DNA from: Anaeramoeba flamelloides
Taxonomy: Eukaryota > Metamonada > Anaeramoebidae
Assembly: GCA_027625915.1 (NCBI GenBank)
Contig: JANTQA010000070.1
Coordinates: 5,399,001-5,463,000 of the forward strand
Reading direction: 5' to 3'
Length of the DNA stretch: 64,000 nucleotides
Positions 23,308 through 35,515 of this stretch are shown in pieces (the first letter of the stretch is position 1; every line of letters begins with the position of its first letter). The notes under the pieces were generated by a model, which saw nothing but the letters and a program-made list of their open reading frames with translations, was not told the origin of the DNA and did no database searches. The position numbers and the translations under genes are program-made.

Positions 23308-23507
23308 TTGTCAGTTCCACTTTTAAGGCACAAACTTTTAAAGAAATTTAAGGCACAATAAAAATATCAAATTAAGACATAAAATTCAGATTCAAGCAAA
23401 ATAAATTGAAAAAAAAAAAAAATTACAAATAATGTACCTTAATTTGAGATTTTTTTGTGCCTTAAATTTTGTTGAAAGTTTGTGACTTAAAAGTGGAACT
23501 GTCTGTA
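23308..23507. mobile_element. Palindromic MITE, old type, copy E
   Basis: Left end TTGTCAGTTCCAC, right end GTGGAACTGTCTGTA. Central arms carry diverged iterons. It lies just outside the pogo-like element. Confidence 0.85.
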
Positions 23508-23805
23508 AGATATCTTCAAGGAAACTGTTTCAACAAATCTTTTTATGTTACTGTTGTGGAAAAAAAGTGAAACAGGGAAAAAATGTGAAATAGATCTTTT
23601 TTTTCATTTTTTCTACTTTTTTTTTAATTGGGGGTTTTTCAACAATTGTGTTTTTAAAAATGATAACAAAAATTATAAAGAGAAACGCATTGAGTTCTTC
23701 AGTCAGAAATTGTTCAACAAATATTGAAAAGGCCTTTGAAACTTGGAAAAGTATCAAAAATATGGAAAACAGGGTAGTTCGAGTTAGCGCCATTTCCAAT
23801 TATTT

Positions 23806-24008
23806 TACAGTCAGTTTCACTTTTAAGGCACAAACTTACAACGAAATTTAAGGCACATAAAAAATCTCAAATTAAGGCACAAAATTTGTAATTTTTTTTT
23901 TTTTTCAATTTATTTTACTAGAATTTGAATTTTGTGCCTTAATTTGAGATTTTTTTTGTGCCTTAAATTTCGTTGAAAGTTTGTGCCTTAAAAGTGAAAC
24001 TGACTGTA
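23806..24008. mobile_element. Palindromic TA-bounded MITE, young (TTTCAC) type, copy F, in transposase
   Basis: Starts TACAGTCAGTTTCAC and ends GTGAAACTGACTGTA. It sits between codons for ...ISNYF and NVSRTT..., and leaving one TA restores AAT TAT TTT AAT GTA. Confidence 0.95.
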
Positions 24009-24143
24009 ATGTATCAAGAACAACGTTAGGTAGATGGGTTAAAAAATTTATAGAAAATGGAATTGTAACCAGAAAAGGTCGGCCATTAAAGTTGAATGAA
24101 GAACAAATAAAGAAATTAAAAATGTGTTTAAATAAAAAACTTT

Positions 24144-24346
24144 TACAGTCAGTTTCACTTTTAAGGCACAAACTTTCAACGAAATTTAAGGCACAATAAA
24201 AATCTCAAATTAAGGCACAAAATTTGGAATTTTTTTTTTTTACAATTTATTTTTACTAGAATTTGAATTTTGTGCCTTAATTTGAGATTTTTTTTGTGCC
24301 TTAAATTTTGTTGAAAGTTTGTTCCTTAAAAGTGAAACTGACTGTA
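24144..24346. mobile_element. Palindromic TA-bounded MITE, young type, copy G, in transposase
   Basis: Same ends and size as copy F. The downstream frame is offset by one base in an A-run directly after the right end. Confidence 0.95.
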
Positions 24347-24572
24347 GAAAAAAAAATGCCCCGAGTATTATTGAGATATTAGACGAAGCTAATCACTTAA
24401 TACGGGAATTTAATCTTCAAAATTTTGGAAGTCGGATAAAACAAAGTGAGATTCTTTCCAGAAAATGGGTATATGGTTGGGTAAAAAGAAATCACTGTTT
24501 CATTTTGGATTGTAAGCAAACAAAAAAAGAAAAACCACAAATAAAAGAGCAAGAACTGACAAAATATTTTTT

Positions 24573-24774
24573 TAAAGTCAGTTTCACTTTTAAGGCACAA
24601 ACTTACAACGAAATTTAAGGCACAAAAAAAAATCTCAAATTAAAGCACAAAATTCAGATTCTAGTAAAAATAAATTGTAAAAATTAAAATTTAAAATCTT
24701 GTGCCTTAATTTGAGATTTTTTTGTGCCTTAAATTTCGTTGAAAGTTTGTGCCTTAAAAGTGAAACTGACTGTA
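24573..24774. mobile_element. Palindromic TA-bounded MITE, young type, copy H, in transposase
   Basis: The left end is TAAAGTCAGTTTCAC (C to A at position 3); the right end is GTGAAACTGACTGTA. Removal joins ...TKYFF to NLRFLIQKH in frame. Confidence 0.95.
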
Positions 24775-24850
24775 ACTTAAGATTCTTAATCCAAAAGCAT
24801 AGATATAAAACCGGTCTAATTTTCAATATGGATGAAAACACTGTTTATAA

Positions 24851-25052
24851 TACAGTCAGTTTCACATTTAAGGCACAAACTTTCAACGAAATTTAAGGCA
24901 CAAAAAAATCTCAAATTAAAGCACATTTTTTTAGAATTTTAATTTTCACAAATTATTTTACTAGAATTTGAAATCATGTGCCTTAATTTGAGATTTTTTT
25001 TGTGCCTTAAATTTCGTAGAAAGTTTGTGCCTTAAAAACGAAACTGACTGTA
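24851..25052. mobile_element. Palindromic TA-bounded MITE, young type, copy I, in transposase
   Basis: Starts TACAGTCAGTTTCACATT and ends AACGAAACTGACTGTA. Removal joins MDENTVYN to NTSTEKIKV in frame. Confidence 0.95.
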
Positions 25053-25520
25053 ATACCAGTACTGAGAAGATTAAAGTGGTTACTACTGACTTAACAAACA
25101 ATCCAATTCGAAACATTCCACAAATCAACTTCCATATCACTGCTGTTGTCACAGTAGCAAATGATGGAACAAGTATAAATACCCTAATGTTGGATAAAAG
25201 AAGACCAATTAAACAAGACTTAGTTGACAACTCCAATTATACAAGGCTCTCATTTGTTCAATCGAATTCGGGAGAATATGACAAAAAATCTTTTTTCAAA
25301 ATGGTTAAAAAATATTTTTATCCCTGCTGTTGACCTCAAGAGAAAAAAAATAGGTGAAAATGAAAATGCATTACTAAAAATAGACGGTGCTCCTTCTCAT
25401 AGACCGGATGAAGGGCATTTATTATGTGAAAAACCCAAAATACAAATTTTATTTTTGCCAGCCAATAGTTCCCATTTACTCCAACCCTGCGATGTTGTTA
25501 TTTTTAAAGGATTACAATCA

Positions 25521-25605
25521 TACAGTCAGTTTCACTTTTAAGGCACAAACTTTTTGTAGTAATTTAAGGCACAAAAAAATCTCAAAATAAGGCACATTTG
25601 TTTTT
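25521..25605. mobile_element. Left half of a palindromic MITE (copy J)
   Basis: Starts TACAGTCAGTTTCAC with two good iterons, then breaks off into unrelated sequence with no right arm. It marks the right boundary of the truncated pogo element. Confidence 0.85.
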
Positions 25606-25884
25606 CCCCAAAATTTTTCAAAAAAAAAATCGATTTTTTTGAAACAAAAAAATTTTGTTTAATTTACTGTAAAAAAACTTGTTTTTTTTTGAAATATATT
25701 AAAATCGTTCCTAAATACAAGTAATTTTAATGTCTCGTCAGAACTCGAAAAGTAAACATTTTTGAGACTCCGGAGTTTTAAAAATCGATTTTTCAGACGA
25801 TTTTAACACAGATCAAATAATACTGAGTGTATGAAATCAAATAATTGATCAAAAATCACGATCAGAAAAAAATTTTTTAAACAC

Positions 25885-26190
25885 AAAGAAAAAATGACAA
25901 AGGAATTGAATTTTCTTTGTCATTTTTTTTTCAAAAATAACAAAGCACCTTGTAAAAATCCCCATGTTCGGAAAAAAAAAATAACAAAGGAATTAAATTT
26001 TTTTAAAAAATAACAAAGGAAATAAAAAAATAACAAAGAAAATTTATTTCCTTTGTTATTTTTTTATTTCCTTTGTCATCTTATTCAAAAATGACAAAGA
26101 GTCCAAAAAATAACAAAATTATTTTTTAAACTCTGTTTCTTATTTTTTTTTATCATTTTTGACACAGTCAATTTTCTTTGTCATTTTTTG
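25885..26190. repeat. Array of AATGACAAAG / CTTTGTCATT short hairpins
   Basis: Variants AAATGACAAAG, AATAACAAAGG and their reverse complements alternate about a dozen times, separated by A/T runs, just upstream of the LINE ORF1 start. They could form serial small hairpins and may be the element's 5' UTR. Confidence 0.6.
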
Positions 26191-26212
26191 ACCTTTAAAC
26201 CACAACTCTTGC

Positions 26213-27235
26213 ATGCAAGAAATGAACACAACGAGATTTACCAACACTTTATTGGTGTTGGGAGTTCCCCTTGCTCACAAAATTGAGTATTTTAGGGAAG
26301 ATCTATATGAACATTTCCACCGTACTAACACCCAAATCGGAGATATAAAAATTTTCCGCAACCCTCCCAGCAACAAAAATAGCAACATATACAAGGGGAG
26401 GAGTGACGAGGGGAGCTACGAGGAAAAATATGAGAGAATTTTTGAAAAAAATTATCGAGGAACCAGGATTCGAACAAGGGACATGTCGAATAGACCCAAA
26501 CACAAGGAGATTCTGATAGAATTTGAACATCCGAGACAGGCTACTAGAGCTTACTGGGCCATAAACGACAGATACCAACCCTTAAGGGTTAAAAATAGTA
26601 AAATTCAAGCTTCTTTTTTTAATCTTAATTTTACCCCTCAGAAATCACATCGTACCACACATGATGGGAATTTTAGAGGTCATAGGCAAAGGTATCCCGA
26701 CTCTCGCCACCTGGTAAATAAAGACTACAGTCCCAACCAGGTCTTGAAAGAGAAGTATGACCCTGAAAAACAAGGTACAAGGGTATACTATAACCAATAC
26801 CATGGAAACTCTAATGCTGAAGGTGAAAGGCCCTCTCAACGCTCATCTAAGAGAAACGAGACGGACAAAAGAAACCTTCGGAGAGAAAGAAACAATAATA
26901 CAAAGACCGAGAGAAACTATAACTACAAAAAAAAATGGAAATCCCTCCCAAATGAGTTACAGGAATACACTCAAATACAAACCAAGAAAGAAAAATTCGG
27001 AAAAAAAAAAGAAAAAAATAAAAAAAAGATCAACAAAGAAAAAAATACTCAAAAATCAGAGAAATTTTCAAAGAATGCTCTTTTTTTAATAGGAAAAAAA
27101 GAAAACATTCAAGAAAATATCAAGATCGAAATCATAGAAAAACACTACATGAGTTTCAACCCTAGAAAGATAGAAAGAAAAATATCAAAAGCAGGGAAAA
27201 TATATACATTATTTATTTTAAAAATGAAAAAATGA
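26213..27235 (+). CDS. LINE ORF1 (nucleic-acid-binding protein)
   Basis: 340 residues starting MQEMNTTRF. The N-terminal ~140 residues include NTLLVLGVPLAHKIEYFREDL and IEFEHPRQATRAYWAINDRY, which look like an RNA-recognition-type fold (a beta strand, then a helix with conserved aromatics). The rest is very basic (Arg/Lys/Asn), as in many LINE ORF1 proteins that coat the RNA. It is free of MITE insertions, unlike everything downstream. Similar sequence continues past the TGA stop in other frames (27240-28150, Lys/Glu-rich coiled coil). Confidence 0.6.
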   Translation: MQEMNTTRFTNTLLVLGVPLAHKIEYFREDLYEHFHRTNTQIGDIKIFRNPPSNKNSNIYKGRSDEGSYEEKYERIFEKNYRGTRIRTRDMSNRPKHKEILIEFEHPRQATRAYWAINDRYQPLRVKNSKIQASFFNLNFTPQKSHRTTHDGNFRGHRQRYPDSRHLVNKDYSPNQVLKEKYDPEKQGTRVYYNQYHGNSNAEGERPSQRSSKRNETDKRNLRRERNNNTKTERNYNYKKKWKSLPNELQEYTQIQTKKEKFGKKKEKNKKKINKEKNTQKSEKFSKNALFLIGKKENIQENIKIEIIEKHYMSFNPRKIERKISKAGKIYTLFILKMKK

Positions 27236-28153
27236 GAAATAAAGCTCTCATAATGGAAAGCACAGAAATAAACAATAAAACAATATTAGTAAAAAAGGCT
27301 CTAAAAAAATTGCTCAATATAACTCTAATATAGTCGAAAAAAGAACTAAAACATTAGAGGAAATATCAAAATTAATAACTGATATTAAAAAAGAACAGAA
27401 AGAAAATTTGAGTATAATTCAAGATAAAATAAAAAAACTAAAAAAAGATAAAAAAAAAATCAAAGAAGACTCAGAAAAAGAACTAAAAAAATTATACCAA
27501 AATAAAATAAGACTTAAATTAGAATTAGAATTTGGAGTACATTTACAACCCAATTCAAAACTAACACAAGAAAAAAATATAAAAACTAAAAGTGAAATTG
27601 ATAATAACAAAAAAATAATTGAAATAAATAAATAGGAGAACACTAAACCAAAAATTCAAAAAGATTAAAAAGATCAAAAAGAAATAGAAAAAGATATAAA
27701 AAATAAAAACTTGGAAAGAAAAAATAAAATCTCAAAGAATAAAAACCAAGAAAATGAAAACTCAAATAATAAACAAGGAAAAAATAAAAACACTAAAATA
27801 AAATAAAATAAAACTAAACTAATACAAGAATAAAATACTCTAACATAAAAAACCAAGATAAAGAAAAGACTCTTGATCAAAAGGGAATAGTTGAAACAAA
27901 CTCTAATTTAAAATTAGGACAAACTGAGAAAAGAGACTCTCTTTGCTGCGGAAGCTCAAACCCACGAGGGGAACAATCTCTTTCACCAGACTCTAATTTG
28001 GAAGATTCCACTCTCATCAATGAACTGAATTCCGGAGTTCAGGGAGAGGACAGCAAATTAGATGAAATACAGGGAGAATTTCTAAAAAATCAAGAGTTAA
28101 AACAAAAAGAAAAAGAAAAAGAAAAAGAAATAGAAAAAGAAAAAGAAAAAGAA

Positions 28154-28356
28154 ATACAGTCAGTTTCACTTTTAAGGCACAAACTTGCAACGAAATTTAA
28201 GGCACAATAAAAATCTCAAATTAAGGCACAAAATTCAAATTCTAGGGAAAATAATTTGTAAAAAATAAAAATTCCAAAATTTGTGCCTTAATTTGAGATT
28301 TATTTGTGCCTTAAATTTCGTTGCAAGTTTGTGCCTTAAAAGTGAAACTGACTGTA
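28154..28356. mobile_element. Palindromic MITE, young type, copy K, in LINE
   Basis: TACAGTCAGTTTCAC...GTGAAACTGACTGTA. Removal keeps the Glu/Lys/Ile-rich frame (GAA ATA GAA ATA). Confidence 0.95.
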
Positions 28357-28375
28357 GAAATAGAAAATGAAAATG

Positions 28376-28577
28376 TACAGTCAGTTTCACTTTTAAGGCA
28401 CAAACTTTCAACGAAATTTAAGGCACAAAAAAATCTCAAATTAAAGCACAAAATTTGGAATTTTTATTTTTTACAAATTATTTTCCCTAGAATTTGACTT
28501 TTGTGCCTTAATTTGAGATTTTTATTGTGCCTTAAATTTCGTTGAAAGTTTGTGCCTTAAAAGTGAAACTGACAGTA
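28376..28577. mobile_element. Palindromic MITE, young type, copy L, in LINE
   Basis: Separated from copy K by only 19 bp of LINE sequence. Right end GACAGTA instead of GACTGTA. Removal of both copies leaves one continuous acidic reading frame. Confidence 0.95.
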
Positions 28578-29074
28578 AAAGAGAAGGAAAAAATTGCTAA
28601 ACTAACAGAATCAACAATAATTCAGACGCTATCAGAAGACAATACGAACTTAGATTCAGAACCAGAATCAGATCTAGACACTCTCTCAGAAGAAACGTCA
28701 AGTGATGAATCTGAGTAAAAAGAATCAGAGTCGCAGTCATAAGATGAAAACTATAAGTTTTATAGTAAAAAAAAAAAAAAATTGGATAAACTAGAAGAAA
28801 GACTAAAAGAGAAGTACGATTTGGAGGGAGAACTAAAAATCAAGACCAATTCTCAAACGGGATACTTCCATTCAATAAAATGCCCAAAATGTGGCACATG
28901 GTCAAGATCCAAGAGGAAAATCTTTTGCGCAAACTGTTCCACCAAACAAGATGAAATAGAGATTAAATATTTCACAAGATTTAATGAATTGGTGGACATT
29001 GGGCCCGGAAGGAAGAAGAAAAATTATTGAACAAAAAATAATATACCAAAAAAAATTGGGAGAAATTTGGTAGA

Positions 29075-29276
29075 TACAGTCAGTTTCACTTTTAAGGAAC
29101 AAACTTTCAACGAAATTTAAGGCACAAAAAAAATCTCAAATTAAAGCACAAAATTCAAATTCTAGTAAAAATAAATTGTAAAAAAAAAAATTTTTAAATT
29201 TTGTGCCTTAATTTGAGATTTTTTTGTGCCTTAAATTTCGTTGAAAGTTTGTGCCTTAAAAGTGAAACTGACTGTA
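29075..29276. mobile_element. Palindromic MITE, young type, copy M, in LINE
   Basis: TACAGTCAGTTTCAC...GTGAAACTGACTGTA. Removal joins NLVD to RIGGDINSQ in frame. Confidence 0.95.
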
Positions 29277-30069
29277 GAATAGGAGGGGATATAAATTCCC
29301 AATCTCCCAAAAATAAAAAGAGCAACTCTTCAGACAGAGAGCCCCAAAGAGAAGCTCTTTTCACAAAGTTTAAGGAAAAAAAAAAAAAAATATTTTCCTT
29401 AAACAAGATGACTATTTAAAATGGTATAGAACTGATTTTGAAAATCCACTCGGCCAACCTATAATTCTTAAAATAGAGTTTGACCGAAGAAAAAAAAATC
29501 AAGAATCACACCAAAAATAGATGAATCTTTAAAAAAATAAGAAAAATCTTAAAAAATGAAATAAAAAGATGGAAGATCAATACCATCAACTGTCACCAAC
29601 TGCGAGAATGGCTCTCACAATCGATAAGGTACTCGTACTTCAGAACTTACGAAACCAGACAAACAGCAGTATACAGCAAAGAAAAATATCACCGAAAGAA
29701 ATACCCAAAAAAAGCAAAAATTCCTAAACTCTATAGAAACCTTTACAACTTCACAATCAAGGAAATCAGAAAAAACCTCAAAACAACTTTCACCCATAGC
29801 AAGAAAATAATGAAATATGGGAATATAAGTACATATGAGGAAAGAAACTTCGGACACATAAATGAAGTAGGAAGGAAAAATAAATTGATCCTTAAGACTA
29901 CTGAAGAATTCTTATCAGTCCTAGAAATTTTCTCACTTATCAATAACCCAATCCCACTAAGAGTATTGAGAAGAGGAGAAAAAGAAATAGAAATTTGGGA
30001 TGAATTATTCAATATTTTAACATACCAGGAAACATTTTTAAGAAAGATTAGAAAAATTCATCAAAGTAT

Positions 30070-30270
30070 TACAGTCAGTTTCACTTTTAAGGCACAAACT
30101 TTCAACGAAATTTAAGGCACAAAAAAAATCTCAAATTAAAGCACAAAATTCAAATTCTAGTAAAAATAAAATGTAAAAAAAAAATTTCCAAATTTTGTGC
30201 CTTAATTTGAGATTTTTTTGTGCCTTAAATTTCGTTGAAAGTTTGTGCCTTAAAAGTGAAACTGACTGTA
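30070..30270. mobile_element. Palindromic MITE, young type, copy N, in LINE ORF2
   Basis: Lies just upstream of the endonuclease. Removal reads ...IHQSIKMLKYDRK. Confidence 0.95.
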
Positions 30271-30427
30271 AGATGTTAAAATATGACCGAAAAAACAGAC
30301 CAAAATTCATTGAGAAAGGAAGATCCCCACAAGAAAACAGCGAAATCACTCTTAAAATAGCTACTTTAAATGTGGGAGGAATTGGAAGGGATGAAAAAAT
30401 TCTAGAAATGGAAAAATTCATCTTTAC

Positions 30428-30626
30428 TACAGTCAGTTTCACTTTTAAGACACAAACTTTCAACGAAATTTAAAGCACAAAAAAATCTCAAATTAAAGCA
30501 CAAAATTTGGAAATTTTTTTTTTTTACTATTTTTACTAGAATTTGAATTTTGTGCTTTAATTTGAGATTTTTTTTGTGCCTTAAATTTCGTTGAAAGTTT
30601 GTGCCTTAAAAGCGAAACTGACTGTA
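30428..30626. mobile_element. Palindromic MITE, young type, copy O, in LINE ORF2
   Basis: Inside the endonuclease domain, between FIFT and NNIDIALIQS. Frame kept. Right end GCGAAACTGACTGTA. Confidence 0.95.
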
Positions 30627-31389
30627 ATAACATAGATATAGCGCTAATACAATCGACAAAAAGGAAAAATACTCCGTATCTAAGGAAATACAGAGCAATA
30701 TCAAAAAAATCATATGGTAATAATGGTACAAAGGGAGGACTAACAATCTTATTCAAACCCTTCCTAAGACTATTCATTAATGAAAAACTAATTGATCATG
30801 AAGACTTCATGGGAATTAACCTAAACAATATTACCATAATTAACTGCTATGGTAGACAAAAGGACCCAGATGGCAAAATTGACTTCGTTGGAATATTCAA
30901 AAACAAAATAAAAGAAATCAGTGAGAACTGGAAAATGGAGAAAATACTCATAGGAGGTGATTTCAACTTGAACAACGAACAAATGGGAAAAATAACTGAA
31001 ATAAGAAAAAATAATTTCCAAATAATTCAAAATGAAATCCCCTCTAGAGTTAGAAATATCGATCATTTGGTCATGAAAAATATAAGACTAAAGGAAAGAA
31101 TCAATAAATGCCTTATAACTCCACTGATACCAAAAGAAAAACAACGAATAAAAATTAAAAAAAAATAAAGAAAATAAAGAAAAAGAAAAAATTGAATTAA
31201 TCAGACTCTCAGAGCATAAAATGGTAATAAATGAGATCAAAATAGAAAAAGATCTTGAAATTAGAGAAATCTTCTCTTGCCGAGACGATTCCAAATTTCA
31301 AGAGGAATTCATCTCAAACTTCGAAAACGAAGAATTAAATAAAGAAAATTTCTCAAAATTTCAACAGAAATTTCGAAAAAAAATTCACC

Positions 31390-31591
31390 TACAGTCAGTT
31401 TCACTTTTAAGGCACAAACTTTCAACGAAATTTAAGGCACAATAAAAATCTCAAATTAAAGCACAAAATTTGGAATTTTTTATTTTACAATTTATTTTTA
31501 CTAGAATTTGAATTTTGTGCTTTAATTTGAGATTTTTATTGTGCCTTAAATTTCGTTGAAAGTTTGTACCTTAAAAGTGAAACTGACTGTA
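31390..31591. mobile_element. Palindromic MITE, young type, copy P, in LINE ORF2
   Basis: Between endonuclease and RT. Removal joins KKIHL to IQDIKYDDY in frame. Confidence 0.95.
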
Positions 31592-32521
31592 ATACAAGAT
31601 ATAAAGTATGATGACTACATTACATTACAAAAAATGATAGACTTTATATCAGACCCATCCACCAAAAAAATAATCATTAGAGAAAAAACAAAAAATTGGG
31701 AAAAAATTCTGAAAAAAAATCAATACGGAATTCAAACTCAATAACATAAACTGGTGGAAACACTACAATCAAATAAGAGGAAATAACCTCAAAATGATCA
31801 AAAATAACCCCAAAATGGAAAGAGAATACAAAGAACACATAGACACAATAAAGAAAAAAATCAACAAAAAATTCATCAAAGAAATAGAAAACACTAAACC
31901 CTTCTATGAAACAGAAAAAAAACCGTTGAAACCGTTAAACTTCTTCGAAAAAGAGGAAATAGAAGGACAATTGAAATGGATTAAAAATAAATCAGTTAAA
32001 CAATTCGACAAAATTTTTCTGTACAAAAAAGACACTAAAAAAAAAAGAAGATCAAAAATACCAGCAAAACTACTCAAAATTCATAACAACACTGCAAAGA
32101 ATCTTCCAAACTCGGATCAAGAATCCAAATAAGGATAACTTGAACTGTATTAAGGAAAGAGACCTACTCTTCATTCACAAAAAAGGAGATGAAGGAGTAA
32201 CTCTAAACTATAGACCAATCTCAATTAACAATGCTTTGGCAAGAATATTCCTTAAGCTCTTATACAAAAAAAATCGAACAGTCATGGGACCATATTGATC
32301 CCCTTCAATTCGGATTTAGGAAAAAATTCGACACAAGAATAGTAGTAAAAAACTACTTGGACAAGTTCAATGAAGAAAAAAAGAAAAGAAAAAAGAAACA
32401 CACTTGGGCAGTCACAATAGATTTAGCAAAATTTTTTGACTCAGTACCTCATAAACTAATTGTCAAAACAGCACCAAAGTTTATTAATGACCCCCTAATA
32501 AGAGAATTTATTAAACAATAT

Positions 32522-32721
32522 TACAGTCAGTTTCACTTTTAAGGCACAAACTTTCAACGAAATTTAAGGCACAAAAAAATCTCAAATTAAAGCACAAAAT
32601 TTGGAATTTTCTTTTTTACAATTTATTTTTACTAGAATCTGAATTTTGTGCTTTAATTTGAGATTTTTTTGTGCCTTAAATTTCGTTGAAAGTTTGTGCC
32701 TTAAAAGTGAAACTGACTGTA
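32522..32721. mobile_element. Palindromic MITE, young type, copy Q, in LINE RT
   Basis: Inserted just before the RT GVYQGDPLSP box. Removal gives KQYYTGNGTGVYQGD in frame. Confidence 0.95.
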
Positions 32722-32877
32722 TACTGGAAATGGGACAGGAGTATACCAAGGAGACCCACTTTCCCCCCATAATATTTGCTTATATTAGCCACTTCATATT
32801 ACAAAGAATCAAACCACATACAATACACACGCAAATGTATGCAGATGATCTGATCCTAATAATGGAAGGTAAATCTC

Positions 32878-33079
32878 TACAGTCAGTTTCACATTTAAGG
32901 CTCAAACTTTCAACGAAATTTAAGGCACAAAAAAATCTCAAATTAAGGCACAATTTTTTGGAATTTTAATTTTCACAAATTATTTTACTAGAATTTAAAA
33001 TCATGTGCCTTAATTTGAGATTTTTTTTGTGCCTTAAATTTCGTAGAAAGTTTGTGCCTTAAAAACGAAACTGACTGTA
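32878..33079. mobile_element. Palindromic MITE, young type, copy R, in LINE RT
   Basis: Inserted ~35 bp after the YADD box. Its arms (CACATTTAAGG; GTAGAAAG; AACGAAACTG) share private changes with copy I in the pogo element, so the two are close relatives. Confidence 0.95.
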
Positions 33080-33200
33080 CTAGAAATTGAAGAATTATTA
33101 AAAACAAAAATTTACCCAATCATCACAAAATATGGATTGACGGTAAATGATGATAAAACAGAAAAGGAGACTGAAAAAAACCTTAAAAAGATCAAATACC

Positions 33201-33401
33201 TACAGTCAGTTTCACTTTTAAGGCACAAACTTTCAACGAAATTTAAGGCACAAAAAAATCTCAAATTAAAGCACAATTTTTTGGAATTTTAATTTCAACA
33301 AATTATTTTACTAGAATTTGAATTTTGTGCCTTAATTTGAGATTTTTTTTGTGCCTTAAATTTCGTAGAAAGTTTGTGTCTTAAAAGTGAAACTGACTGT
33401 A
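33201..33401. mobile_element. Palindromic MITE, young type, copy S, in LINE RT
   Basis: Splits the conserved KYL|GIWLD block of LINE ORF2. Removal restores it exactly. Confidence 0.95.
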
Positions 33402-33711
33402 GGAATATGGCTAGACAAAAAAGAACACATTCAAAAAAACCTAGATAAAGCCAAAGACCACTTTTCTAGATACATCTACATTTACGCAAATGATAGACTC
33501 TCAAATGCGCTAAAGATCCAACTTTTTAAGGTAGTTATACTACCCCAAGTTCTCTATGACCTAGATGTTTTCAACCTGACGAAAACAGACTATGAGAAAA
33601 TAGAAACTTGGATTAATGTAAAGATAAAAAACATAATCAAAGTCAACATAGGCACACCAACCGATATCATAAGATGGGAGACTAGAACCGAGCCCACAAA
33701 ACATATGATAC

Positions 33712-34112
33712 TACAGTCAGTTTCACTTTTAAGGCACAAACTTTCTACGAAATTTAAGGCACAATGAAAATCTCAAATTAAGGCACAAAATTTAGAATTA
33801 CAGTCAGTTTCACTTTTAAGGCACAAACTTTCAACGAAATTTAAGGCACAAAAAAAATATCAAATTAAGGTACAAAATTCAAATTCTAGTAAAAATAAAT
33901 TGTAAAAGAAAAAATTACAAATTTTGTGCTTTAATTTGAGATTTTTTTTGTGCCTTAAATTTCGTTGAAAGTTTGTGCCTTAAAAGTGAAACTGACTGTA
34001 AATTTTTTACAAATTATTTTACTAGAATATGAATTTTGTGCCTTAATTTGATATTTTTTTTGTGCCTTAAATTTCGTTGAAAGTTTGTGTCTTAAATTTG
34101 ATACTGACTGTA
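33712..34112. mobile_element. Palindromic MITE, copy T-outer, itself split by another MITE
   Basis: The left arm is 33712-33798 and the right arm 34001-34112. The right terminus is more diverged (AAATTTGATACTGACTGTA). Removing the whole nest joins KHMI to LKRKAKFLKK in frame. Confidence 0.9.
33799..34000. mobile_element. Palindromic MITE, young type, copy T-inner, nested
   Basis: A complete copy inserted at a TA in the spacer between the arms of T-outer. It therefore arrived later, showing sequential activity of the family. Confidence 0.95.
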
Positions 34113-34768
34113 AAAAGAAAAGCTAAATTCCTCAAGAAACTGAAAAAATTGGAACTTGAGTACTTAGCTAAAGACCTCAAATTAGATGAAATCGAATGTA
34201 TACACTGGGAAAACATGGAGGAAAAAGAAATCAAAGAAAGACTCCATCAAACCCACATTAAAACCATACAAAATAAAGTCGATTCATCTATTGGAGAAAA
34301 GAATTGGAAACTGAAGAAATATCTCAAGATTGCTCAATTTCCAAATAACTTTGCGCAAAAAAACAACCATATCTAAGCTGGAAATCATCAACAACCCTAT
34401 TTAAGCTCAAATCCTTCTCAAATGGCTTATGTAGGTACATATACAAATGGGAACCAGGTATAGATACCAAAATATGCCCTTGTTGTAATAAAAAAGTTGA
34501 TGATGTTGACCATTTCATATGGAAATGCGAAAAATATGAAAAAACTAGGAAATTCTGGAAATATGATCTTAAAAACATCGAGGGGTTCGATTTTAGTATC
34601 ATTACCAGAGAAGATACAGATGAACTCTTCAGAAAAATGAACGTGAAAGTGATATATGACATCACGATTGAGTACCTTATAACCAACATGACTCAACATG
34701 CTATAAGGAAAAATGCACTCAAATCCAAATAAACTAGTCAAACCCATCTGAAAAATAGTTTACATTTA

Positions 34769-34971
34769 TACAGTCAGTTTCACTTTTAAGGCACAAACTT
34801 TCAACGAAATTTAAGGCACAATAAAAATCTCAAATTAAAGCACAAAATTTGGAATTCTAGTAAAAATAAATTGTAAAATAAAAAATTCCAATTTTTGTGC
34901 CTTAATTTGAGATTTTTTTTGTGCCTTAAATTTCGTTGAAATTTTGTGCCTTAAAAGTGAAACTGACTATA
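34769..34971. mobile_element. Palindromic MITE, young type, copy U, 3' of LINE ORF2
   Basis: TACAGTCAGTTTCAC...GTGAAACTGACTATA. It lies ~35 bp after the LINE stop, in its presumed 3' UTR. Confidence 0.93.
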
Positions 34972-35059
34972 ACACCCCTCAGATTTCTTTAACTCTCTTT
35001 TCTTATTTTTTTTTTTTTTTTCTCCATAGGTCTGACCTCTGGAACACTCTTCACTTTTT

Positions 35060-35222
35060 TTCTTCCCCCTTCTAATATTTTAGAAAACTAAATTAAGTTT
35101 AAAATTCCCCTAATGACTATATTATAGACATAGGTCTTAAATATTCTTTGAATTAGGAGACACAAATTTAGTCACTTCAAAATTCTCTCTTTAACAGTTT
35201 GTTTATTACACTTAACCCATAT
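35060..35222. repeat. Dispersed repeat, copy 1 (partner at 55258-55400)
   Basis: Shares TTTAGAAAACTAAATT, CTTTGAATTAGGAG, CACAAATTTA and CTCTCTTTAACAG in the same order and spacing with 55258-55400. Possibly a SINE or LINE tail. Confidence 0.6.
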
Positions 35223-35515
35223 CAATAAACCGGAAAACTCTATTTTTTGAAGAGAGCCATTGTTGAAAGGGCAAAACGCCAAGGTGTTGCCCGCTGGTCA
35301 CGGGTTCGAATCCTGAAACAAGAGCTTTCTTCATTTGTCTTAGAAAGCTGTTTACTTAAGTAACGTCTTCGGATGCCTGCACTCCGGTACTCGTTGATTC
35401 CAAAGTTTTAATAGACAGCCTCTTCATCTCTCTCTTTAACAGGTATAACATCTGCCGTCTTAGGATGTCATACTCTTCCCTATCTCAGGAAAACTCTATT
35501 TTTTAAGACATTCCA
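35195..35515 (+). repeat. tRNA-like (Pol III box) repeat, probable SINE head
   Basis: A perfect B box GGTTCGAATCC (35303-35313) lies 31 bp after an A-box-like TTGTTGAAAGGG (35260-35271), i.e. normal tRNA spacing. The T arm pairs 4 of 5. The acceptor and anticodon stems pair poorly, so a functional tRNA is unlikely. The tRNA-like unit is bracketed by direct repeats containing CTCTCTTTAACAG and GGAAAACTCTATTTTTT (35195-35250 and 35433-35508). The surrounding ~200 bp is less AT-rich than average. Fits a tRNA-derived SINE or tRNA pseudogene. Confidence 0.4.

Follow-up and report, generated by a model that had tools for sequence, protein, structure and literature searches.

Palindromes crowding a LINE and a pogo-type transposon of Anaeramoeba flamelloides are very probably nested MITEs with a candidate autonomous partner

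Why should the coding regions of two transposable elements (TEs) be crowded with short palindromes that can, on paper, be deleted without disturbing the reading frame? This question is raised by a stretch of DNA from the metamonad Anaeramoeba flamelloides, the 64,000-nucleotide window at positions 5399001-5463000 of contig JANTQA010000070.1 (C70), which has 25% GC and lies within a 254-Mb genome (assembly GCA_027625915.1). Several long host-like open reading frames (ORFs) of the window stay open with the standard code. An earlier examination of the letters, hereafter the original prediction, had described palindromes throughout a pogo-type transposon and a long interspersed nuclear element (LINE), and had offered three models for them: (a) nested miniature inverted-repeat transposable elements (MITEs), (b) elements excised precisely from DNA, and (c) elements removed from RNA. 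We conclude that the palindromes are very probably non-autonomous MITEs of the Tc1/mariner-pogo type, nested in an old LINE and a pogo element. C- and L-numbers below denote contigs and retrieved loci.

Sixteen complete palindromes of 195-199 bp (about 198 bp) were found at 23808-34969 together with one half copy at 25523, exactly the count predicted for 23806-34971 (Table 1). Each starts with CAGTCAGTTTCACTTTTAAGGCACAAAC or a close variant, finishes with its inverse, and is flanked by TA on each side. The TA was present at both flanks in all 15 uninterrupted copies and likewise around the outer nested copy (33714-34110). Arms of the uninterrupted copies matched at 58-75 of the outer 75 positions without gaps, and the sole copy folded as an RNA strand (32524-32719) gave -127.6 kcal/mol (z = -26). 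Terminal inverted repeats (TIRs) and a TA target duplication, two features by which a Tc1/mariner-pogo MITE is recognized, are thus present. Elsewhere in the window there are seven further copies, some of them old or partial (11662, 12559, 13302, 13872, 23308, 56806 and 63153).

Sister copies of the LINE and the pogo element served as within-genome controls that reveal each tested site in its empty state. Besides the LINE of the window, seven long copies and four shorter ones exist; over a 308-base probe, ten of the eleven share 93-99% identity with the window, and one matches just 69 bases of the probe. Five other copies of the pogo element were retrieved (97-98%), including one that a further insertion has split. 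As searches of genome DNA scored the best candidates only, these copy numbers are to be read as "at least". A sister copy was counted as empty if its junction score exceeded the threshold, and copies below the threshold were counted neither way. At 15 of 15 tested sites (the sixteenth copy, nested at 33801, was outside the test), every scoring sister copy, 4-11 per site, possessed an empty site with a single TA. Neither a filled site common to the window and a sister copy, nor a sister copy with both flanks yet unjoined, was found at these sites. The C68 copy scored below threshold at the 32880 site, yet its alignment spans the site without a MITE. Sister copies carry MITEs of their own at other places: near 31225 in C70b (L056), near 32778 in C68 (L019), and in the pogo copy L043, close to site 24146 and in another TA. 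Empty tested sites combined with MITEs elsewhere in sister copies constitute a mobile-element insertion pattern. Clean empty sites in related copies, a third feature of Tc1/mariner-pogo MITEs, were therefore seen at every tested site, and the survey of genomic LINE and pogo copies suggested by the original prediction favoured its model (a). The outcome agrees with one of the two parts of the condition which that prediction had set for its own refutation, the part on genomic copies.

Table 1. Features of the palindrome-rich interval and the state of each MITE site in other genomic copies of the host element
Position	Strand	Feature	Site in other copies
23308..23505		MITE, more diverged, next to the pogo element on its left side	
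23550..25522	+	pogo-type transposon: left TIR and most of the transposase, 4 MITEs, ended by insertion of the 6.2-kb transposon	
23808..24006		MITE, TA duplication	empty in 5/5 other pogo copies
24146..24344		MITE, TA duplication	empty in 4/5 other pogo copies; fifth (L043) unscored
24575..24772		MITE, TA duplication	empty in 5/5 other pogo copies
24853..25050		MITE, TA duplication	empty in 5/5 other pogo copies
25523..26142	+	left end of the 6.2-kb transposon (the predicted half copy), in the pogo element, interrupted by the LINE	
26143..35232	+	LINE (endonuclease and reverse transcriptase), inside the 6.2-kb transposon at its position ~650; 12 MITEs	
28157..28354		MITE	empty in 7 scored copies, joined jointly with the neighbour MITE 20 bp away
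28378..28575		MITE	empty in 7 scored copies
29077..29274		MITE	empty in 7 scored copies
30072..30268		MITE	empty in 7 scored copies
30430..30624		MITE	empty in 7 scored copies
31392..31589		MITE	empty in 7 scored copies
32524..32719		MITE, arms 100% complementary	empty in 8 scored copies
32880..33077		MITE	empty in 8 scored copies
33203..33399		MITE splitting KYL/GIWLD	empty in 10 scored copies
33714..34110		MITE, itself split by a second MITE	empty in 11/11 copies
33801..33998		MITE nested in the 33714-34110 MITE, in a TA	
34771..34969		MITE in the LINE 3' untranslated part, TA on both sides	empty in 10 scored copies

MITEs of the Tc1/mariner and pogo groups in animals, fungi and plants have TIRs, a TA duplication, no coding capacity and a habit of nesting in repeats, and they are thought to be mobilised in trans. 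The family described here differs in being a near-complete palindrome with a short unique centre and in being very dense in single TE copies. Its partner appears to be the element to which the half copy belongs. Positions 25523-26142 are 94.7% identical to positions 86-650 of an element on C24, which measures 6,239 bp including its TAs and has TIRs equal to those of the MITE over the first 20 (left) and 19 (right) bases. Its transposase matched Pfam DDE_1 over the cut-off (5.7e-10) and DDE_3 just below it (4e-6). Inspection by eye placed the second of its three acidic residues 97 positions after the first, with 35 residues between the second and the third (DD35D). A Tc1/mariner-pogo MITE is expected to have a partner that shares its TIR and encodes a DD(E/D) transposase. 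The 6.2-kb element fits this description, and we infer that its DDE transposase is likely the mobiliser. The MITEs would most likely have been moved by it in trans, with duplication of the TA. The pogo element was rejected as a mobiliser, its TIR (ACTGTTGTGG...) being different.

For the 6.2-kb element, no fewer than 25 left ends were counted genome-wide, that of the window among them. Eleven right ends (including the query's) are 98-100% identical over 799 bases; at seven of ten right-end loci the final match was to the element-type TIR, and the flanks beyond it differ, whereas at the other three it fell on a nearby MITE. Its copies are nearly identical, and hence the element was probably active recently. 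A MITE family of thousands of copies is now paired with a probable autonomous partner. The partner carries 65-bp tandem repeats and, in a further departure from known MITE systems, a long non-transposase C-terminal region located 3' of the transposase, part of a 653-aa frame in L073 (L065:1912-4072; L068; L073:1835-3793, minus strand). Motifs of this region (CWFDS ... HYTSLVR ... WYHFND) resemble, by eye only, a ubiquitin-specific protease; nothing in Pfam scored over the cut-off against it. A search of solved structures gave no match with the transposase and eight weak matches with the C-terminal ORF (best E 0.12).

We then consider the reading frames, whose state had been an argument for removal. 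Taking out a palindrome together with one TA brings the original flanks back together, as had been claimed, and the split blocks are continuous elsewhere: KYLGIWLD in ORF2 of the C57 copy and the pogo block in L042. Such frames are restorable on paper because a TA insertion keeps both flanks intact, and the empty sites in sister copies mean that no special removal from DNA or RNA is needed to account for them. Restoration held at many single junctions, where joined flanks gave ORFs of up to 415 aa, but not at 29077, 33801 and 34771, which lie outside any long sense-strand frame. The LINE itself encodes a reverse transcriptase (RT; RVT_1 2e-29 in the C57 copy) and has a weak Exo_endo_phos match below the cut-off. 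Compared with an open copy of 1,189 codons, window ORF2 with its palindromes joined out contains eight frameshifting indels (six in homopolymers of at least four) and one nonsense codon, which contradicts the good state attributed to the split ORFs. Six other long LINE copies contain 7-27 frameshifting indels against the same open copy, five of them being nearly identical in substitutions. Indels in homopolymers form the majority in five of these six (from 11/16 up to 11/11) and three of seven in C19, and part of the ORF2 breakage may be assembly error or slippage. The proposal that removal keeps the ORFs alive was rejected, the window ORF2 being still broken after joining. The frames of the window neither prove nor require removal of the palindromes.

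To place the cluster in the genome, we counted exact element ends. A 34-mer made of TA and TIR occurred 2,161 + 2,169 = 4,330 times and its reversed control not once, which excludes chance. Dividing 4,330 by twice the fraction of exact ends (40 of 90, from 17 window and 28 outside copies) gave an estimate of about 4,900 MITEs genome-wide, or about 0.019 per kb; four older window copies (0/8 exact ends) and nine copies in L002-L008, loci retrieved by likeness to a window MITE copy, were omitted from the fraction. The 11.2-kb interval contains 16 MITEs against 0.21 expected at the genome mean, in a comparison computed with 17 copies by including the neighbour at 23308. Clustering is not peculiar to this locus. 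Among the first 100 of the 4,330 matches, all on C1, the first 6.57 Mb of that contig contained 77 elements, with as many as seven in 6.5 kb; 14 of the gaps between them were no longer than 1 kb, where 0.89 would be expected. Eighteen loci retrieved through the 6.2-kb element had 15 complete MITEs in 65.5 kb, a density (0.23 per kb) some ten times the mean, and three older or partial LINE loci had four in 9.7 kb. Eight other LINE 3' loci (26.5 kb) had no complete MITE, one copy being cut by a locus edge; seven LINE 5' loci (23.9 kb) had one, pogo loci (20.3 kb) two, 21 loci of 70-75% LINE relatives (69.1 kb) four, and seven loci of 76% pogo-probe relatives (21.7 kb) two.

The idea that TE coding sequence as such is the target did not survive sampling of loci chosen through the MITE itself (L002-L008 and L090-L092). 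In these ten loci, 14 of 15 MITEs had no frame of more than 100 aa across the site, by a crude proxy that ignores introns, and one was in a LINE RT frame; insertion is thus not confined to TE frames. Beside the window, 35 MITEs were located in 22 loci, 20 of them in loci fetched through TEs. Four of these 20 were in frames of more than 100 aa: two in the pogo copy L043, one in L081 (no Pfam family over the cut-off), and one in a gene fragment for a ubiquitin carboxyl-terminal hydrolase (UCH) in L082. The absence of palindromes from host exons holds within the window for the copies outside the interval (0/7), but carries little weight (P = 0.40, as the four long non-TE ORFs make up 12% of the sequence outside the interval). 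Elsewhere in the genome, two palindromes interrupt the UCH fragment (L082:400-1353 oriented; C19, ~157 kb). The first piece of this fragment matched its Pfam family at 2.1e-7 and the second at 2.6e-4, below the cut-off; flanks joined at its first MITE read in one frame.

The age of the landing site was estimated from private substitutions, defined by the count as changes that all seven other long copies lack. Eight long LINE copies were compared across 2,475 aligned columns: the window has 43, C19 has 20 and the other six have 0-4, which makes the window LINE the oldest copy in this set. The six youngest copies differ from each other by just 0.1-0.7%, indicating that the LINE spread recently, and they contain one MITE among them in the parts fetched, indicating that it spreads without MITEs. 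The density in the window would accordingly reflect a landing site that is old, tolerant and rich in repeats, together with the tendency of this MITE to cluster in the genome, rather than removability, and relaxed selection together with a locus-specific factor such as chromatin may cause the clustering. The remaining question is why one TE copy is saturated with MITEs and its sisters are nearly free of them.

Several observations weigh against nested insertion into old elements as a full account. The window LINE represents 54% of terminal branch length but received 12 of 13 insertions (the nested copy included; P = 0.004), so that age explains part of the MITE load, not all, and a local factor (chromatin, a hotspot or weak local transposition) behind the load is still to be explained. 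The full-length C24 copy of the partner is rearranged, its two flanks matching LINE positions about 2 kb apart. Finally, the nearest relative of a cluster copy lay inside the cluster in 11 of 17 cases against 6.2 expected (P = 0.09). This last result bears on local hopping, by which one or two founder MITEs jumping nearby would have generated the cluster. Two close pairs (24853/32880, 97.5%; 28157/28378, 96.5%) point the same way, and with the similarity-fetched loci kept the nearest relative was inside in 7 of 17 cases against 4.8 expected. Mean identity within the cluster was 0.919; towards outside copies it was 0.913 for a set of 28 (P = 0.25 by permutation) and 0.919 for all 37. Local hopping is thus an unlikely explanation of the cluster. 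Founder duplication as its main cause was rejected on the identity and nearest-relative comparisons, and we allow for a slight local component.

Somatic or RNA-level removal, models (b) and (c), is improbable, and even the two together are very unlikely. That palindromes are tolerated in transcribed sequence because their hairpins are cut out at the TA, whether in RNA or in somatic DNA, is likewise a highly improbable idea; if true, it would explain the UCH-fragment palindromes as well as the restorable frames, and the RtcB genes of this genome would be candidate ligases. In its DNA form, removal would be precise somatic excision by a domesticated excisase, restoring expressed frames as for elements resembling internal eliminated sequences (IESs), namely miniature inverted-repeat transposable IESs (MITIES). 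A TA-bounded palindromic MITE with thousands of copies and a DDE partner recalls the excised MITEs of Blepharisma, as far as the excerpts of PMC9942856 describe them, and the exactly restorable flanks and the two UCH-fragment palindromes fit such a process. Yet those excerpts put the intragenic share of predicted Blepharisma IESs at about 70%, against 14 of 15 sampled MITEs outside long frames here by our crude proxy. In sister copies the filled sites are different ones and the tested sites are empty. The IES-like interpretation is unsupported and, in our estimate, extremely improbable.

Cutting hairpins from transcripts, for example in an RtcB-dependent manner, would resemble the SOS splicing of animals, in which transposons are removed from RNA with RTCB ligation; in the excerpts of PMC13247085, RTCB is found in all domains of life and the endonuclease is given as unknown. 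The near-perfect hairpin of the one folded copy and six RtcB genes over the Pfam cut-off are consistent with this mechanism. A palindrome-free daughter is a possible product of RNA removal followed by retrotransposition. However, there is no processed daughter among the seven other long LINE copies, none of which has the 43 private substitutions of the window (as their definition entails). ORF2 remains broken after joining, and the TIR/TA ends offer no GT-AG register for exact removal. We regard removal from RNA as hardly credible. CAAP1 is an SOS-splicing factor; a search of the genome gave no CAAP1 match, and as none was obtained in control genomes either, this search is uninformative. The six RtcB genes, many for a eukaryote, are located on C51, C13 (two), C37, C1 and C33.

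Among known systems, the closest is Bogo/BogoMITE of Blepharisma stoltei, to judge from the excerpts of PMC9942856. Both comprise a Pogo/Tigger-type transposon in few copies and thousands of short non-coding derivatives sharing its TIRs, and both show recent proliferation, some nested insertions and palindromic relatives in the same genome. BogoMITE is about 389 bp with TAA/TTA duplications, whereas the MITE here is about 198 bp with TA; BogoMITE is germline-limited and excised, and most Blepharisma IESs are intragenic, in contrast to the MITEs here, most of which, among the few sampled, had no long frame across the site. SOS-splicing substrates (PMC13247085, in excerpt) are also DNA transposons in transcribed sequence, and RtcB is present in this genome, but the MITEs here are known from DNA sequence alone. 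Introners are mobile, have many copies and in some cases inverted repeats (PMC9860276, PMC7789003, both in excerpt); unlike them, the MITE has no exact GT-AG register and one of 15 sampled copies in a frame of more than 100 aa. A GT-AG introner was rejected, the three registers of exact removal beginning with TA, AC or CA.

The order of insertions at the locus can be proposed from the boundaries in Table 1. The 6.2-kb element would have entered the pogo element and the LINE the 6.2-kb element; as a last step, MITEs would have inserted at TA dinucleotides, both in the pogo element and in the LINE, and in one case within another MITE. The label "pogo" is carried over from the original prediction. 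Positions 23550-25522 are about 94-98% identical to copies L040-L042 and L044, the pogo TIR and ORFs are present in L042, and the 3' end of the pogo element was not found in the window. The junction between LINE and 6.2-kb element (position ~650) recurs with both sides in C19 and C50 and with the 3' side in C1, C33 and C68, with junction duplications like AACTCTATTTCTTA (loci L080, L082, L013, L015, L017, L018 and L019). Other sequence lies on the LINE 5' side in C57, C70b, C26 and C12, with a similar ACTCTATTT/ACTCCATTT motif in C12 and C26. The same insertion point and the similar motif suggest that the LINE endonuclease may prefer a target motif around AACTCTATTTCTTA. The 5' flank of the window LINE (26143) is the 6.2-kb element, its 3' flank (35232-35256) is not, and its duplications do not match exactly, indicating a rearranged or recombined copy. 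Located 3' of the LINE, at about 35302, is a tRNA-like stretch, GGTTCGAATCC, not called a tRNA by ARAGORN (bacterial code). Inverted repeats around ATGACAAAGGAA/TTCCTTTGTCAT occupy 25890-26190, comprising the inner end of the left arm of the 6.2-kb element and the start of the LINE.

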